Below are positions 26,578-34,929 of a stretch of 64,000 bases of DNA, one piece after another (positions within the stretch are counted from its first letter, which is position 1; each line of letters starts with the position of its first letter). The position numbers were made by a program, and so were the translations under genes. Below the pieces are notes generated by a model. It did not search any database. It was not told where the DNA came from and worked only from the letters and a program-made list of their open reading frames with translations. The DNA is from Cryobacterium sp. MP_M3 (lineage in GTDB: Bacteria > Actinomycetota > Actinomycetes > Actinomycetales > Microbacteriaceae). Where the stretch lies: assembly GCF_015752155.1 (NCBI RefSeq), contig NZ_JADOVI010000012.1:1-64000 (forward strand). Direction: 5' to 3'.

Positions 26578-27318
26578 ATGACCCAGCTTCGTGACGCATC
26601 CATCCTCGTCGTCGGCGCCTCAGGGGGCCTCGGTCGTGACATCGCCCGGCGCCTCGCGGACCAGGGCGCGCGACTGATCCTCAGCGGACGGGACCGAGGC
26701 AGCCTCGAGGCCCTTGACCTTCCCGGGACGATCATCACCGCCGACCTCGCCGTGCCGGCCGACATCGCCGACCTGGTCGCCGCCGCGGTCGCCGTCGCAG
26801 GCCGCCTCGACGGCATCGTGAACGCCGCCGGCGTCGTCGCCTTCGGAGCGGCGACCGAGGTGACCGACGCGACGCTGGAACGGCTGTTCGCCGTGAACAC
26901 GCTCGCCCCGATCCGGTTGCTGCGGGCCGCGCACGCGGCCCTGACCGAGTCGGCAGCGGCGGGGCGAAGTCCCTTCCTGGTGACGCTGAGCGGGGTCGTG
27001 AGCGAAAGCCCGACCGCCAACCTGGCGGCGTACTCCGCATCGAAGGCAGCTCTTGCGGCCTTCGACAAGGCCGCCGGCCGGGAGCTGCGCCGGAGCGGCA
27101 TCCGCATTGTCGACGCCCGGCCGGGCCACACCGAGACCGGGCTGTCCGCGCATCCGATCGCCGGAGCGGCGCCACGGCTGCCCGCCGGGCACGCACCCGA
27201 CCTGGTCGCCCGGCGCATCGTCGCCGCGATCATGGCCGACGAGGCCGACCTGCCGAGCACGGCCTTCTCGGTTCCCGCGGTGAGGCCGTTCGCGGAGGGC
27301 GCGGGTACCGATGCTTAG
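26578..27318 (+). CDS. Short-chain dehydrogenase/reductase
   Basis: A 246-residue classical SDR. It has the Rossmann glycine motif VGASGGLGR (residues 12-20), the NAAG structural motif (82-85), catalytic Ser138, and Tyr152 and Lys156 in YSASK. It uses NAD(P)(H); the substrate is unknown. It lies 79 bp after parC, and its stop codon overlaps that of the convergent parE by 4 bp. Confidence 0.88.
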   Translation: MTQLRDASILVVGASGGLGRDIARRLADQGARLILSGRDRGSLEALDLPGTIITADLAVPADIADLVAAAVAVAGRLDGIVNAAGVVAFGAATEVTDATLERLFAVNTLAPIRLLRAAHAALTESAAAGRSPFLVTLSGVVSESPTANLAAYSASKAALAAFDKAAGRELRRSGIRIVDARPGHTETGLSAHPIAGAAPRLPAGHAPDLVARRIVAAIMADEADLPSTAFSVPAVRPFAEGAGTDA

Positions 27319-29396
27319 ACGTCGATCCGGTCGCGGCTGAGCTTGTCCGAGCTGTCGATGATGAATTCCTTGCGGGGGGCGACGTCGTTGCCCATCAGGA
27401 GTTCGAATACCTTCCCTGCCATCTCCGCGTCGGACACCCTGACCCGGCGGAGGGTGCGGTGCGCGCGTTCCATGGTCGTGGTGGCGAGCTGGTCGGCATC
27501 CATCTCGCCGAGCCCCTTGTAGCGCTGGATCGGGTCCTGGTAGCGCTTGCCGCTCTTCTTCAACCCGGCGAGCACACCGTGCAGTTCAGGCTCCGAATAG
27601 GTGTAGATGGTCTCATTCGGCTTGCTGCCCGGGTTCATCACGACCACCCGGTGCAGCGGCGGCACCGCCGCGAAGACACGGCCCTCGGTGATCATCGGCC
27701 TCATATACCGGAAGAAGAGGGTCAGCAGGAGGGTGCGGATGTGGGCGCCGTCAACATCCGCGTCGCTCATGATGATGACCTTGCCGTACCGCGCTGCGGA
27801 CAGATCGAAGCTGCGCCCGGAGCCGGCGCCGATGACCTGGATGATCGACGCGCATTCCAGGTTGGAGAGCATGTCGGACACCGAGGCCTTCTGCACGTTG
27901 AGGATCTTGCCCCGGATCGGCAGGAGGGCCTGGTGCTCGCTGTCCCTGGCGAGCTTCGCGGTGCCGAGCGCCGAGTCACCTTCGACGATGAACAGCTCGC
28001 TCGTGGTCACGTCGTTGCTGCGGCAGTCGACCAGCTTCGCCGGCAGCGACGAGCTCTCGAGCGCGTTCTTTCGCCGCTGGGTTTCCTTGTGGGCACGGGC
28101 GGAAATGCGGGATTTCATCTCGGCGACGATCTTGTCCAGCACGACCGCCGCCTGGGTCTTGTCGTCACGCTTCGTGGATACGAAGCGTTCGTTCATGGCC
28201 TGGGCGACGACGTTGGCGACGATGGCGCGCACGGCCGGTGTGCCCAGGACCTCCTTGGTCTGTCCTTCGAACTGCGGTTCGGGAAGCCGCACGGTCAGCA
28301 CGGCGGTCAGGCCGGCCATCACGTCGTCCTTCTCCAGCTTGTCGGAGCCCATCTTGAGGCGGCGGGCGTTCAACTCCACCTGGGATCGCAGGAATTTCAG
28401 CAGCCCGGCGTCGAAGCCGGCCTGGTGGGTGCCGCCCTTGGGCGTGGCGATGATGTTCACGAAGCTGCGGACGACGGTGTCGTAGCCTGTGCCCCAGCGC
28501 AGGGCGATATCGACGGCGCAGTCCCGGGTCAGTTCGGTCGGCACCATGGCGCCCTTGTCGGTCAACACGGGGACGGTTTCGGTGAAGCTGCCGTTGCCGG
28601 ACAGCCGCCAGGTGTCGGTGATGGGGGTGTCGGTTGCGAGGTGGTCGACGAACTCGGAGATGCCGCCCTCGAACTGGAATGACTCGCGTACGGGTTCGGC
28701 GCCGCGCTGGTCGTCGATGTCGATGGCGAGGCCGGGAACGAGGAACGCGGTCTGCCTGGCCCGGTCGAGGAGCTCCTCAGTCTGGAAGGCCGCCCCCCTG
28801 GTGAAGATCTGCCGGTCCGCCCAGTAGCGCACCCGGGTTCCGGTGACCCCGCGCTTGACCTTGCCGATCACGCGGAGTTCGCTCTGCTTCTCAAACGGTG
28901 TGAAGGGCGCGTCGGGGCTCTTCTCCCCCGTGTCCGCGAAGATCCCGGGTTCGCCGCGGTGGAACGACATCGCCCAGGTCTTGCCGTCACGGTCGACCTC
29001 AACGTCGAGGCGCTCCGACAGGGCGTTCACCACGGATGCCCCCACGCCGTGCAGGCCGCCGGAGGCCGCATACGATCCGCTGCCGAACTTGCCGCCGGCG
29101 TGCAGCTTGGTGAAGACCACCTCCACCCCGGTCAGGCCTGTCTTGGGCTCGATATCCACCGGAACGCCGCGGGCGGTGTCCCTGACCTCGACGCTCTCGT
29201 CCGAGTGCAGGATGATGTCGATCCGGGAACCGAATCCGCCGAGCGCTTCGTCGACCGAGTTGTCGATGATCTCCCAGAGGCAGTGCATCAGACCGCGCGA
29301 GTCGGTTGAACCGATGTACATGCCGGGGCGCTTGCGAACCGCCTCGAGCCCCTCGAGGACCGACAGGTGGCGTGCGGAATAGTCTGAAGAGCTCAC
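27315..29396 (-). CDS. parE: DNA topoisomerase IV subunit B (ParE)
   Basis: A 693-residue type IIA topoisomerase ATPase subunit. The GHKL ATP-binding site includes EIIDNSVDEAL and the GLHGVGASVVNALS lid. The TOPRIM domain has the metal-binding Glu in IVEGDSALG and the acidic cluster in MSDADVDGAHI. The C-terminal QRYKGLGEMD motif contacts subunit A. The start is a GTG giving SSSDYSARHLSVLEGLEAV, the normal family beginning. With parC it forms topoisomerase IV, which decatenates replicated chromosomes; aminocoumarins target this subunit. Confidence 0.93.
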   Translation of the reverse strand: MSSSDYSARHLSVLEGLEAVRKRPGMYIGSTDSRGLMHCLWEIIDNSVDEALGGFGSRIDIILHSDESVEVRDTARGVPVDIEPKTGLTGVEVVFTKLHAGGKFGSGSYAASGGLHGVGASVVNALSERLDVEVDRDGKTWAMSFHRGEPGIFADTGEKSPDAPFTPFEKQSELRVIGKVKRGVTGTRVRYWADRQIFTRGAAFQTEELLDRARQTAFLVPGLAIDIDDQRGAEPVRESFQFEGGISEFVDHLATDTPITDTWRLSGNGSFTETVPVLTDKGAMVPTELTRDCAVDIALRWGTGYDTVVRSFVNIIATPKGGTHQAGFDAGLLKFLRSQVELNARRLKMGSDKLEKDDVMAGLTAVLTVRLPEPQFEGQTKEVLGTPAVRAIVANVVAQAMNERFVSTKRDDKTQAAVVLDKIVAEMKSRISARAHKETQRRKNALESSSLPAKLVDCRSNDVTTSELFIVEGDSALGTAKLARDSEHQALLPIRGKILNVQKASVSDMLSNLECASIIQVIGAGSGRSFDLSAARYGKVIIMSDADVDGAHIRTLLLTLFFRYMRPMITEGRVFAAVPPLHRVVVMNPGSKPNETIYTYSEPELHGVLAGLKKSGKRYQDPIQRYKGLGEMDADQLATTTMERAHRTLRRVRVSDAEMAGKVFELLMGNDVAPRKEFIIDSSDKLSRDRIDV

Positions 29397-29531
29397 AACT
29401 GTCAAGAATACCGACCGGAAGCGCCCGGCTCCCCAGCAACACCCTGCCCACATCGTCTACGCGGTGAGCGAAATGCAACCAAACGGAGTCGAAAACCGGG
29501 GCGGACCGTGTTTACATGGAGCACAGGTTAA

Positions 29532-29551
29532 ATTGGTATCACTTGGTATCA
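29532..29551 (+). repeat. Tandem TTGGTATCA repeat upstream of the DUF7455 gene
   Basis: Two copies of TTGGTATCA separated by one base (29533-29541 and 29543-29551) lie 17 bp before the start codon, immediately upstream of a strong GGAGGAGG ribosome site. A TTTACA hexamer at 29511 with TGGTAT at 29534 (17-bp spacing) is a possible promoter that includes the first copy. The second copy would then lie at or after the transcription start. Confidence 0.45.
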
Positions 29552-29568
29552 GTCTGGAGGAGGAAAAC

Positions 29569-29820
29569 ATGTCCCAGATCGCAACCGGAAATGGTGCCAT
29601 CGACCAAAGTTCCGTCGACGGGCAGAGCGCCCCTCACCAGCTCACCGCGGCCGACCGCTGCGATGCGTGTGGCGCCCAGGCCTACATCCGAGTCGTCGTC
29701 AACAACAGCGAACTGATGTTCTGCGCCCACCACGGCCGCAAGCACCAGGAGAAGCTCGCGGCGATCGCCGAGAGCTGGCACGACGAGTCCAGCCGACTCC
29801 TCGAGGACCAGCGCTCCTAG
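29569..29820 (+). CDS. DUF7455 small zinc-ribbon-like protein
   Basis: An 83-residue actinobacterial protein of unknown function with four likely metal ligands: Cys31 and Cys34 (CDAC), then Cys52 and His54/His55 (CAHH). The C-terminal helix is charged (HQEKLAAIAESWHDE). A very strong ribosome site, GGAGGAGG, precedes the ATG, suggesting high expression. Homologues commonly lie near the principal sigma factor gene, as here. No enzymatic motif is visible. Confidence 0.85.
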   Translation: MSQIATGNGAIDQSSVDGQSAPHQLTAADRCDACGAQAYIRVVVNNSELMFCAHHGRKHQEKLAAIAESWHDESSRLLEDQRS

Positions 29821-29988: not shown

Positions 29989-30720
29989 CTACTCCGCAGT
30001 GAGACCCAGCGCCACGGCAAGTTGATTGCGCCCGGCTTTCGCTGTCTCGTCGACTGCGATGGCTCGTGCCCCCGGAAGGTACACTGCGCCGGCTCGCGCC
30101 AGGGCCGTGCTGAGCAGGTGGTCGGCGAGGGCGGGGTTCCGGGCCAGCACCGGTCCGTGCAGGTGGGTGCAGACGAGGTTTCCCATGACGAGGCCCTCGG
30201 CGCCGGTGCCGGCGCCGTTGCCCGTTCCGGATCGGACCCGGCCGAGCGGTGACGCCTCGGCGCCGACGTAGTCGCGGGCGTGGTTCTCGAAGCCGACCAG
30301 CCGGCCGAAACGGGAGTCGACGATGAGGTCATCGGTGACTCGTTCGGGACGGGGAACCGCGCGGCCCGTGACGATTCCGAGGCCCTCGACGACGGTACCG
30401 TCACCGAGTTCGATCCCCCAGCTAAGCAGTTCCCACCCGGTGCCGACGGCGAGGATGGGGATTCCCTCCGTGCACCAGGCGCGGAGCTGCTCGGTCATTG
30501 TGGCGAGGATGTCGCGCACGCCGGTCAGGTCGGTGTCGGACCCGGATCCGATCACGACGAGGTCGATCTGCTCCGGCAGGTCGGCGGCCGTGCGCACCGG
30601 GATGACGTCGGCGTCGAAGCCGGCCCAGCGGGCGCGTTGGGCGAGCACCCGGGCGTTCGCGGCGTCGCCGTTCGTGCCGAGAAGTTCGGGCAGTACGGAG
30701 ACGATGCTGAGCGCGCGCAT
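29989..30720 (-). CDS. gatD: GatD-like glutamine amidotransferase subunit lacking the catalytic cysteine
   Basis: A 243-residue class I (CobB/CobQ-type) glutamine amidotransferase domain, paired with MurT as the lipid II isoglutaminyl synthase. In the known enzymes the nucleophile is the Cys of a CGGYQ-type elbow (Cys94 in S. aureus GatD) and the base is a His in LHGP. Here the elbow reads AVGTGWELL, with Gly93 (codon GGC, 30442-30444) where Cys is expected, while His188 in THLHGPVLARNP is kept. It should therefore be unable to hydrolyse glutamine. The reading frame is intact and of normal length. The start overlaps the murT stop by one base (TAATG). The role may be structural or altered; see findings. 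Confidence 0.85.
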   Translation of the reverse strand: MRALSIVSVLPELLGTNGDAANARVLAQRARWAGFDADVIPVRTAADLPEQIDLVVIGSGSDTDLTGVRDILATMTEQLRAWCTEGIPILAVGTGWELLSWGIELGDGTVVEGLGIVTGRAVPRPERVTDDLIVDSRFGRLVGFENHARDYVGAEASPLGRVRSGTGNGAGTGAEGLVMGNLVCTHLHGPVLARNPALADHLLSTALARAGAVYLPGARAIAVDETAKAGRNQLAVALGLTAE

Positions 30721-31988
30721 TACTCCCGCCCTGCCTTGTTGGAGACGAGCCCGAGGTGGGCGCGGGTGCGGCGCATGGAGTCGGCCGAGAAGATGATGGT
30801 TTTCAGTCCGATCCGCGGGTCAGGGAGCGCGAGGAATTCGTCGAGGGCGCGGCCGAGGTCAGGCTCGATGCGCTCAATGGTGACGTCGTCGTAGGCAAGC
30901 TGCAGGGCGATTTCCTGCGCCTTCGAGCCGGAGGCGAAGAGAACCAGGCCAAGCCCGGACGTGTCGACCGGCCAGAAGTAGGATGGGTCACGGACATCCG
31001 AACCGATCGCGATCAGGATCTGGTCGGTTCCGGCCGCGAGGCTGTCAACGTTGAGCTGGAAGCTCGCGGGGTTCTGCACGAGCACGAATTCGACCTTCCG
31101 GCCGCGCACCGTGACGATCTCGCCCCGGCCGAACACCGGCGGGATCGCCGAGATGGCGGCGACCGCTACGGCAGGGTCGAAACGCTCGCCGAGGACCGCC
31201 TGGGCGGTGCTGAGGGCGGTCAGCGCGTCGACGGCATAGTGGGTGCCGCGGGCGGGCAGGCCCATGTCGTAGCTGGCTCCGTTCACCAGCACGGTGGCGT
31301 CGCGGCCGTCGACCGTGGTGAGGAGCATTCCCTCCAACGGGGAGAGGCGGTGGCCGGCCGTCACGCTGTAGCCGAGTCCGCGCGGGTTCGCCGCGAGGAC
31401 ATCCGCGGACACGCCGTAGCGGGACACGCCCACGGTTCCCTCGAGTCGCGATGCCAGGTCCACCAGGTGCTGGTCGTCGGCATTCACGACGACGGTTCCG
31501 GTGGCTCGGGACGCGATTTTGCCGAGCATGGCCGCGACCATCTCGGAATCGTGGAAGCGATCGATCTGGTCGACCATCACGTTCGTCAGCGCGACGACCC
31601 GGGGCTTCAGCGACCCTGAGATCAGGGCGCCGTGCCCCTCATCCATTTCCAGCACGGCCACGTCGCCGCTGATCCGGCCGGCCAGGCTGGCCTGCTCGAG
31701 CAGCGCCGAGGTGAGCCCCTGGCTGATGTTGGCCGTCGACTCGTTCGTGAACACGCCCAGCCCGTGCGCCCGGAGAGCGGCAACCAGCATCTTCGTGGTG
31801 GTGGACTTGCCGCTCGAGCCGGTCACGATGACCAGTCCGCCCGGGAAGCCGTTCAAAGTGCGGGCCAGGAATCCCGGCGCGATGGTATTGACGACGAGAC
31901 CGGGGACCGCTGATCCCCCACCCGGCTTCCGCCATCTCGCCAGGACGCGAACAACCCTGCCGACGAGGATCGCCGGTGCGTAGCGCAC
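30720..31988 (-). CDS. murT: MurT-like Mur-ligase-family protein without the zinc ribbon
   Basis: A 422-residue Mur ligase homologue. The ATP loop is TGSSGKSTTTKML (Lys61), the central domain has NVMVDQIDRF and the NADD motif, and the C-terminal domain keeps DVRDPSYFWPVD, close to the DGRDxSWxWD catalytic signature. Characterised MurT proteins carry a Cys4 zinc ribbon in the central domain; this protein has no cysteine at all. MurT activates the alpha-carboxyl of D-Glu in lipid II as an acyl phosphate. The start is GTG, 8 bp after the sigA stop, and it overlaps gatD by 1 bp, giving sigA-murT-gatD as a likely transcript. Confidence 0.88.
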   Translation of the reverse strand: MRYAPAILVGRVVRVLARWRKPGGGSAVPGLVVNTIAPGFLARTLNGFPGGLVIVTGSSGKSTTTKMLVAALRAHGLGVFTNESTANISQGLTSALLEQASLAGRISGDVAVLEMDEGHGALISGSLKPRVVALTNVMVDQIDRFHDSEMVAAMLGKIASRATGTVVVNADDQHLVDLASRLEGTVGVSRYGVSADVLAANPRGLGYSVTAGHRLSPLEGMLLTTVDGRDATVLVNGASYDMGLPARGTHYAVDALTALSTAQAVLGERFDPAVAVAAISAIPPVFGRGEIVTVRGRKVEFVLVQNPASFQLNVDSLAAGTDQILIAIGSDVRDPSYFWPVDTSGLGLVLFASGSKAQEIALQLAYDDVTIERIEPDLGRALDEFLALPDPRIGLKTIIFSADSMRRTRAHLGLVSNKAGRE

Positions 31989-31996
31989 GCGGCCGC

Positions 31997-33364
<1,368 letters not shown>

Positions 33365-33460
33365 TCGAACACCTCTCATGCCGTGGCGCTGTCGCCGGCG
33401 GCGCTGCCGGGTCGAAACGGCCGAAGTGGAGCTGGCCGTTCCAACACCTGGGCAGTGTGG

Positions 33461-33489
33461 ATTTTGGGCAGTACTAGGACCCATGTCAA
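33461..33489 (-). promoter_or_regulatory. Probable sigA promoter
   Basis: On the minus strand TTGACA (33489-33484) is followed after 17 bp by CAAAAT (33466-33461). The -35 is perfect and the -10 matches at four of six positions. It would give a leader of about 90 nt before sigA. The rest of the 230-bp gap to the MFS gene holds no other feature I can name. Confidence 0.6.
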
Positions 33490-33594
33490 GTCCCGGGCTA
33501 ATCGCAGCGACAAGATTGTCGATACTCCCAGGACCAGAACGGGCCCTATTGACAATTATTGCATGCTTTGTGTATGAGGCAAGCCAGGCGCGTC

Positions 33595-34929
33595 CTATTC
33601 CGGCCGCCGCCGCCGGCGCCACGCGCGGGCCGCCGCCACCCAGATCGGGGCGACTTCGATCCCCTCGTCGTTGGAAAGCTGCCGGCGCGTGCGCGCCCTG
33701 GCTCGCAGCAGGAAGACCACCCCCAGCCCGACGACCAGGTACTGCACGGAGAACGCCACCCGGAACGAGTCGAGCGAGTACAGGTCGCTTGCTGCGCCGG
33801 CGGCGACGCGCCACCCGTCCTGAAGGTCAAGGAGCAGGCCGACCAGGTACACCATCACGAAGCTCGCAGTGAACCCGCCCACATTGACGACCCCGTTGGC
33901 GGAGCCGTGGCTTCGCTGCGGATTGAAGGTGCGTGCGAAATCGAAACCGATCAGGGAACCCGGACCGCCGATGCCCAGGGCGACCAGCAACACGATCACC
34001 AGCCACATAGGGGGCGTCGTCGGCCAGAGCAGGACGAGCGCCCACGCCGCGCCCATCAGCGACACCACGGCCAGAACGATGTTGCTGCGCCGCAGCGGGT
34101 AGCGTGCCGTGAGGATTCCGAGGATCGGTCCGGCGATCACGCCGGCTCCGACCAGGACCATCAGCATCCCGGCCGCGAGGGACGGGTCGTAGCCGAGGCC
34201 GTAGACCATGAACGGGAAGCCCCAGAGGAGGCTGAAAACGGTTCCCGACGACTGGGTCACATAGTGGGACCAGAATCCCAGTTGGGTTCCCGGCCGTTTG
34301 AAACTGTGCTTAAGCAGGGCGAGCGCGGCAGCCCAGCTGGCCGGACGATCCTCCACCAGGACGCCGGCCGGCCGGTCCTGCACGACAATGATCACCACGA
34401 CGAGCGCGACGAGAGCCACGGATGCCGCTGACACGAACGCGGCCGTCCAGCCCCAGGTGTGCAGCACCCAGGCCAGGGGCACCGCGGACATGACCTGACC
34501 CAGCTGGCCGATATTGCCCAGCCACTGGGAGAGCTGCGGCACGCTCCGGCCGGTGAACCAGGAGCCGATCAGCCGGATCATGGAAATGAAGATCGTCGCG
34601 TCCCCGGCCCCGACGAGGATGCGGCCGACCACGGCGACGCCGATCGTCGGCGCGAAAGCCAGGGTGAGCTGCCCGCCGACCATCAGCGCGGTGCCGGAGA
34701 TGACGAGCACGCGGGGCCCGTACCGGTCGATCAGCACGCCCACCGGCACCTGGGCGGCGGCGTAGACGACAAGCTGAACGACCGCGAGGCTGGAGAGCAC
34801 AGCGGCCGAGCCGCCGAAGCGTTCCGTGGCGGCGACCCCGGCGACGCCCAGCGAGGAACGTTGCAGCACGGCGGACAGGTACGCGAACGACCCGATGGAG
34901 AAGATCAACCAGGAGCGACGCGAGTTCAT
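33595..34929 (-). CDS. MFS transporter
   Basis: A 444-residue major-facilitator protein with about twelve hydrophobic segments. The loop 2-3 signature is seen as [16 protein letters not shown], and helix 4 has [15 protein letters not shown] long Arg-rich C-terminal tail (RARARTRRQ and WRRRRRPE) ends in the cytosol. The arrangement resembles nitrate/oxalate-type or sugar-acid MFS members, but the substrate cannot be assigned. The start [13 protein letters not shown] places the first helix right at the N-terminus. It is upstream of sigA on the same strand. Confidence 0.85.

Follow-up and report, generated by a model that had tools for sequence, protein, structure and literature searches.

A MurT/GatD-like pair without its glutaminase cysteine, at one locus of Microbacteriaceae, is a candidate ligase for the group-B peptidoglycan cross-bridge

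Microbacteriaceae are classically characterised by group-B peptidoglycan, in which cross-links run through the α-carboxyl of D-Glu. Our search of the open-access literature turned up no description of a ligase for this bridge. In the window, a 64,000-nucleotide stretch of Cryobacterium sp. MP_M3 DNA, a first-pass annotation had noticed a murT/gatD-like gene pair without the residues for amidotransfer, and had proposed that the pair activates the D-Glu α-carboxyl and passes it to the amine of a bridge amino acid rather than to ammonia. Having compared the pair across the order and its locus across the family, we lean towards the view that it is a re-purposed isoglutaminyl-synthase complex by which the group-B cross-bridge is begun, through formation of its first amide bond.

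The two ORFs overlap by one base (Table 1), and the window genome has one GatD copy. In phmmer searches the GatD-like protein matched the solved GatD of S. aureus (E 2e-26) and the MurT-like protein the solved MurT of S. pyogenes (E 6e-17). The MurT-like protein passed the cut-off of the Mur-ligase middle domain (PF08245, 56.9 bits against 24) and scored 23 bits against a cut-off of 25 for the MurT C-terminal domain (PF08353), for which two same-genus genomes gave 31.4. The GatD-like protein scored 59.5 bits with GATase_3 (PF07685), in agreement with its fold. The NCBIfam equivalog cut-offs for isoglutaminyl synthase were not reached by the pair (112.1 of 450 and 75.5 of 800 bits). Predicted structures had a mean pLDDT of 95.0 (GatD-like) and 91.2 (MurT-like), and their top Foldseek matches were solved GatD (S. 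aureus GatD, TM 0.82) and solved MurT, respectively. The window MurT was nearest to Cryobacterium MurTs (76-78%), and the MurTs of two same-genus genomes were 89-94% identical to Cryobacterium MurTs. Reading of the coding strand bore out what had been noticed of the residues: Gly93 replaces the elbow Cys within LAVGTGWELL, His188 is retained, and the MurT-like protein has an intact P-loop and no Cys at all. Where canonical actinobacterial proteins have ADGRDxSWLWDVD, the window MurT has GSDVRDPSYFWPVD.

Table 1. Features of the sigA-gyrB locus in the window
Feature	Position	Strand	Basis
sigA (principal sigma factor ORF), border of the locus	31997..33814	-	
murT-like gene, 422 aa, ATP-dependent Mur-ligase-fold subunit	30720..31988	-	ORF, Pfam/NCBIfam, phmmer, predicted fold
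MurT P-loop VTGSSGKST, residues 55-63	31800..31826	-	sequence
MurT motif GSDVRDPSYFWPVD, residues 329-342, with conserved Asp334 followed by Pro335	30963..31004	-	
gatD-like gene, 243 aa, glutaminase-dead	29989..30720	-	ORF, Pfam/NCBIfam, phmmer, predicted fold
Codon GGC, Gly93, site of the catalytic Cys in GatD	30442..30444	-	coding-strand reading
Codon CAC, His188 (THLHGP), equivalent of S. aureus His189	30157..30159	-	coding-strand reading
Small ORF, 118 aa, between gatD and gyrB, conserved locus marker	29464..29820	+	
gyrB, opposite border of the locus	27315..29453	-	

The pair thus resembles the MurT-GatD lipid II isoglutaminyl synthases (S. aureus 6gs2/6h5e, S. pneumoniae 6fqb, S. pyogenes 9sq9) in both folds, in the two-subunit gene order, in the P-loop and in the conserved Asp, but it lacks the glutaminase Cys, falls far under the NCBIfam cut-offs and lies between sigA and gyrB, a locus with bridge-type genes. 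It also resembles MurD, MurE and MurF in fold and ATP motif (Foldseek matched MurF, MurE and MurD) and, as proposed here, in acyl-phosphate and amino-acid chemistry; however, it has no N-terminal UDP-binding domain and would need its GatD-like partner.

How fixed the loss of the Cys is was determined by a wider survey. When Microbacteriaceae were searched for GatD, 110 of 149 genomes gave a match; 90 of the matched places were taken, and murT was matched at the same locus in all 90. Searching the whole order with MurT_C gave matches in 99 of 297 genomes, and 68 loci outside Microbacteriaceae were read. A pattern scan brought the named loci to 120, one of them (L216) without MurT and several incomplete. 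With a profile built from Cys-less MurTs and four candidates scored per genome, matches at E 1e-30 were obtained in 147 of the 396 genomes from the order; all 21 from the window's family reached at least 582 bits, the best score outside the family being 424. The final GatD set comprised 285 sequences (272 distinct), whose classes were assigned from the MurT motif, independently of the elbow. The first-pass annotation had suggested scoring the elbow Cys over such an alignment, and the result was clear-cut: Cys was present in 83/83 distinct canonical GatDs (68 outside Microbacteriaceae and 15 inside, of which L046 was left unclassified by the MurT motif rule) and in 0/189 distinct GatDs of classes II-VII, two of them gapped at the site. 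The loss seen in the window is therefore not due to chance. Among the 189 Cys-less GatDs, the catalytic His was kept in 95, replaced by another residue in 87 and gapped in 7.

Every one of the 68 loci read outside Microbacteriaceae has the elbow Cys. An intact GatD Cys in group-B species had been named in advance as a counter-instance, and 15 Microbacteriaceae loci do encode a Cys-GatD, though 14 of 14 tested had neither gyrB nor its neighbour within about 2.5 kb. The canonical pair was the sole pair in twelve fetched genomes and both kinds were present in three (G050, G060, G113). At one Microbacteriaceae locus, then, the pairs uniformly lack the glutaminase Cys. No MurT-like match better than E 3e-14 was obtained in 27 of the 149 Microbacteriaceae genomes. 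Thus, the pair is not a universal group-B enzyme, a possibility that we discarded on that count, with the wall type assumed from the family.

The missing Cys4 zinc ribbon of the window MurT had been taken as a further sign of lost amidation. The absence itself is real, but the argument from it fails: CxxC was absent in 59 of 68 canonical MurTs outside Microbacteriaceae, all accompanied by an intact Cys-GatD, so that a missing ribbon is uninformative on loss of amidation and was rejected as a mark of re-purposing. In classes V, VI and VII (L371-L385) both the Cys and the His of GatD are lost, and zinc knuckles, scored with one pattern, were retained in 7/8 class V and 2/2 class VI proteins.

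The sigA-gyrB interval of Microbacteriaceae houses the pairs from classes II, III, V and VI, as well as one class IV pair. Both borders were visible in 120 intervals, 114 of them distinct by sigA (six were second copies of the same genome). Among the 114, 89 held the pair only, 17 a CofE-like gene only, one (class VI) both and seven neither. Four genomes from the last group (G003, G012, G014, G021) have a canonical pair elsewhere, and the remaining three (G017, G045, G047) are pair-less genomes whose interval lacks the CofE-like gene as well. The pair-less intervals were fetched from 20 genomes, namely 15 of the 27 without a MurT-like match and five Microbacterium from the order-wide profile search, and a CofE-like gene was found in the interval in 17 of these 20 genomes without any pair. 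In 16 of the 17 no other recognised gene lay between it and sigA, and in one it stood behind EctB. Two of the CofE-like proteins pass the PF01996 cut-off and the others were called by similarity to those two. The CofE-like proteins scored far under the NCBIfam CofE cut-off (22.5-39.5 of 180.65), so they are probably not F420 enzymes. Like CofE, the F420-0:glutamate ligase, they would be amide ligases, and where the pair is absent their gene fills its place next to sigA, whereas the MurT/GatD pair belongs to an unrelated family.

In seven genera with both states (g7, g9, g54, g55, g71, g77, g78), the fetched pair-less members carried the CofE-like gene in all seven (p = 0.016 by a plain sign test). 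The pair-less member of an eighth mixed genus (g15), which has a canonical pair elsewhere, had neither ligase in its interval. When the exchange was tested on the SigA tree, which is poorly resolved, there were five supported pairs and the result was not significant (median p 0.125). Exactly five proteins with Mur-ligase domains were counted in 21 of 23 pair-less genomes (six in G020 and seven in G018), whereas 10 of 11 genomes that have the pair showed six; this count, too, led us to reject the pair as the universal group-B enzyme. The CofE-like gene in the slot of the pair is, in our view, another candidate by which the group-B bridge may be made.

The CofE-like intervals (L351-L355, L357, L359, L360, L362-L369, L381) often carry an ATP-grasp protein and a racemase-fold gene as well. 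Three typical Microbacteriaceae loci (L192, L165, L229) stand under the public labels Planococcus sp. or Acidobacteria, which look wrong. A 0.93 Mb genome of the family (G013, locus L089) has a class II pair with a racemase-fold gene at the locus.

Besides the ligases, the sigA-gyrB intervals hold an ATP-grasp protein (PF14397) and alanine-racemase domains (Pfam, NCBIfam). A racemase-fold gene was present in 25 of 62 distinct class II intervals, 11 of 17 CofE-like intervals and 0 of 18 class III intervals, and in all six genomes checked (G051, G053, G093, G096, G210, G341) the racemase of the locus was an extra paralogue. At the locus, EctB, the L-2,4-diaminobutyrate transaminase, scored over its cut-off in three intervals (L381, L366, L386) and was called by similarity in L162; in L162 and L386 it occurs with a MurT/GatD pair. 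Among 68 genomes searched, EctB passed the E 1e-120 threshold in 15, at the sigA-gyrB locus in G018, G053 and G399 and away from it in Clavibacter, Agromyces and others; the same search did not find it in Leifsonia G051, Diaminobutyricibacter G093, Plantibacter G109 or Rathayibacter G041. Neither a racemase nor EctB was found in the interval of the window, and the window genome gave no EctB match and a single copy of full-length alanine racemase. Tandem genes of the alanine-racemase family were seen off the locus in Clavibacter, Curtobacterium and Frigoribacterium (L387, L388, L389).

Taken with the exchange of ligases, this gene content suggests that the cassette at the locus probably attaches the amino acid that cross-links the Microbacteriaceae wall. 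The same locus evidence would apply if the pair were a group-B amino-acid ligase acting on another bond, such as that to a second bridge residue or one capping the free carboxyl of the diamino acid. Some intervals contain two candidate ligases (the pair or the CofE-like protein, plus the ATP-grasp protein), as a two-residue bridge would need. However, the D-Glu α-carboxyl, which is the group-B carboxyl, is also the target of the MurT/GatD relatives (PMC3266927), and we hold action on another bond to be improbable.

The residue that follows the conserved MurT Asp334 offers a further connection to the bridge. At the named loci it was Pro in Cryobacterium (12/12), Clavibacter (4/4), Herbiconiux (1/1), Leifsonia (8/8), Rathayibacter (5/5), Agromyces (6/6) and Plantibacter (3/3), and Ile or Val in Curtobacterium (25/25), Frigoribacterium (6/6), Frondihabitans (1/1), Salinibacterium (1/1) and Microbacterium (11/11). 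Labedella has Ile, Amnibacterium, Naasia and others have Pro, and Microbacterium L083 has Thr. The walls of Leifsonia, Rathayibacter, Agromyces and Plantibacter contain diaminobutyrate (DAB) and that of Curtobacterium contains ornithine. Published types are DAB for Cryobacterium, D-Lys for Frigoribacterium, Orn for Frondihabitans and Lys plus Orn for Salinibacterium (PMC7033078), a D-DAB bridge for Clavibacter (PMC9603630), DAB for Herbiconiux (PMC10011130), and D-Orn, L-Lys or, in one species, DAB for Microbacterium (PMC10757982). Genus by genus, the residue after Asp334 tracks the diamino acid, Pro going with diaminobutyrate and Ile/Val with ornithine or lysine.

One Microbacterium genome (G399, locus L386) has the gene order sigA-ectB-murT-gatD-racemase-gyrB and Pro after the MurT Asp. 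The closest MurTs to its own are of the Diaminobutyricibacter/Leifsonia type (59%), and other members of its genus, g78, have MurTs 82-90% identical to named Microbacterium MurTs. Judged by these similarities, the interval of G399 looks like a transferred diaminobutyrate cassette, a swap that would change the diamino acid. A simpler rule, in which class II or class III itself denotes the diamino acid, was ruled out, since two MurE types occur with class III and since in G115 the MurE motif is of the DAB type but the MurT of the Ile type. Within Microbacterium, the MurE acceptor motif did not predict presence of the pair (10 of 70 MurE loci were missed by the motif filter).

In five genera the median dN/dS was 0.13-0.42 for gatD and 0.08-0.18 for murT, which indicates that both genes are maintained by selection. 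GatD evolves faster than MurT in 5/5 genera by median dN/dS, with a small margin in Cryobacterium. Across 30 aligned Cys-less MurTs, the P-loop, the acidic residues and the hinge show little or no variation. These data bear on the reading that the pair has been neofunctionalised or is decaying, without a role in the bridge. Such a history would agree with the lost glutaminase residues and with the genomes that lack a MurT-like match. The conserved ATP site, the purifying selection and the confidently predicted folds speak against it, as does the replacement, not plain loss, found in 17 of the 20 fetched pair-less genomes, and we consider it very improbable.

A MurT tree of 91 rows was built by a quick method, with a midpoint root and no bootstrap, and L385 and L089 were on long branches. 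Classes II, III and IV each formed one group and jointly (SH-aLRT 99) stood beside the canonical actinobacterial type, while classes V, VI and VII formed a distant group. From this separation we infer that the glutaminase was lost at least twice in MurT/GatD, in the lineage of II-IV and in that of V-VII. Fixed differences were sought between 117 class II rows, 61 class III rows and 68 canonical rows, 14 divergent canonical rows being excluded. Classes II and III differed from canonical MurT by TGTNGKT to TGSxGKS, Arg90 to Gln and Gly309 to Ser, and by a three-residue deletion (ADG) adjoining the Asp that faces GatD; the deletion also sets these classes apart from the MurT-GatD synthases of known structure. 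Second pairs of class IV lie off the sigA locus in L071 (G111) and L075 (G145), and both genomes also have a class III pair.

What a pair without glutaminase might do can be judged from S. aureus. There, MurT is inactive alone and requires GatD, and MurT with GatD-C94G can no longer use glutamine; given NH3 it still produces amidated lipid II at pH 8.5 but fails to do so at pH 7.5 (PMC3266927). MurT Asp349 is also required (PMC6113224). A structural GatD in a ligase fits this mutant, in which ammonia use was kept. By analogy, the natural Cys-to-Gly enzyme should still activate D-Glu and require an outside amine. The main rival to the bridge-ligase reading is that this amine is free ammonia, so that the pair still amidates D-Glu with a structural GatD while other enzymes build the bridge. 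Besides the C94G mutant and the conserved MurT active site, the muropeptides of Clavibacter michiganensis, whose pair is Cys-less, point in this direction, with "amidation or hydroxylation of D-Glu" reported in PMC9603630; formation of D-isoglutamine had been named as an observation that would count against the bridge proposal, and this report goes some way towards it. However, ammonia was unused at pH 7.5 in the S. aureus work, and free ammonia leaves unexplained EctB, the racemase and the CofE-like exchange at the locus, as well as the MurT residue that tracks the diamino acid. We therefore rate amidation with free ammonia as unlikely. An amino acid is the likelier amine because genes for diamino acids and an alternative amide ligase occupy the same slot.

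For the bridge-ligase reading, we infer the substrate, acceptor and chemistry of the pair, and the equivalence of the two ligases, as follows. MurT would activate the D-Glu α-carboxyl of the wall precursor with ATP to an acyl phosphate, as Mur ligases do, and the attacking amine would be that of an amino acid instead of ammonia from glutamine. GatD, its glutaminase lost, would persist as a structural, non-catalytic partner. The likeliest acceptor would be the bridge diamino acid, D-diaminobutyrate in the diaminobutyrate genera and elsewhere D-ornithine or D-lysine, unless the bridge begins with Gly, which would then be the acceptor. In pair-less genomes the CofE-like ligase would perform the same step.

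Of the original proposal, the bridge-ligase idea gains from the fixed Cys loss and from the locus context, with its diamino-acid-making enzyme, racemases and interchangeable second ligase; the zinc-ribbon argument falls away. Points against a bridge role are the Clavibacter D-Glu amidation, the three genomes with neither ligase, the class VI interval with both, the lack of EctB in several DAB genera, the window interval without racemase or EctB, and the SigA-tree test. A fuller model, which we hold tentatively and at somewhat less than even confidence, would make the sigA-gyrB interval an exchangeable cassette. EctB and an alanine-racemase paralogue would supply the D-diamino acid, and the glutaminase-dead MurT/GatD or the CofE-like ligase would join it to the D-Glu α-carboxyl. 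The residue after the MurT Asp (Pro versus Ile/Val) would set diaminobutyrate versus ornithine or lysine, cassettes would move between genera and change the wall type, and at least two MurT/GatD lineages (II-IV and V-VII) would have lost the glutaminase and reached the slot.

The locus offers candidate enzymes for the ligase of the group-B cross-link. If the bridge-ligase reading is true, an amidotransferase would have become an amino-acid ligase through dropping its ammonia source, and the wall type of these bacteria could be read from genome sequence.
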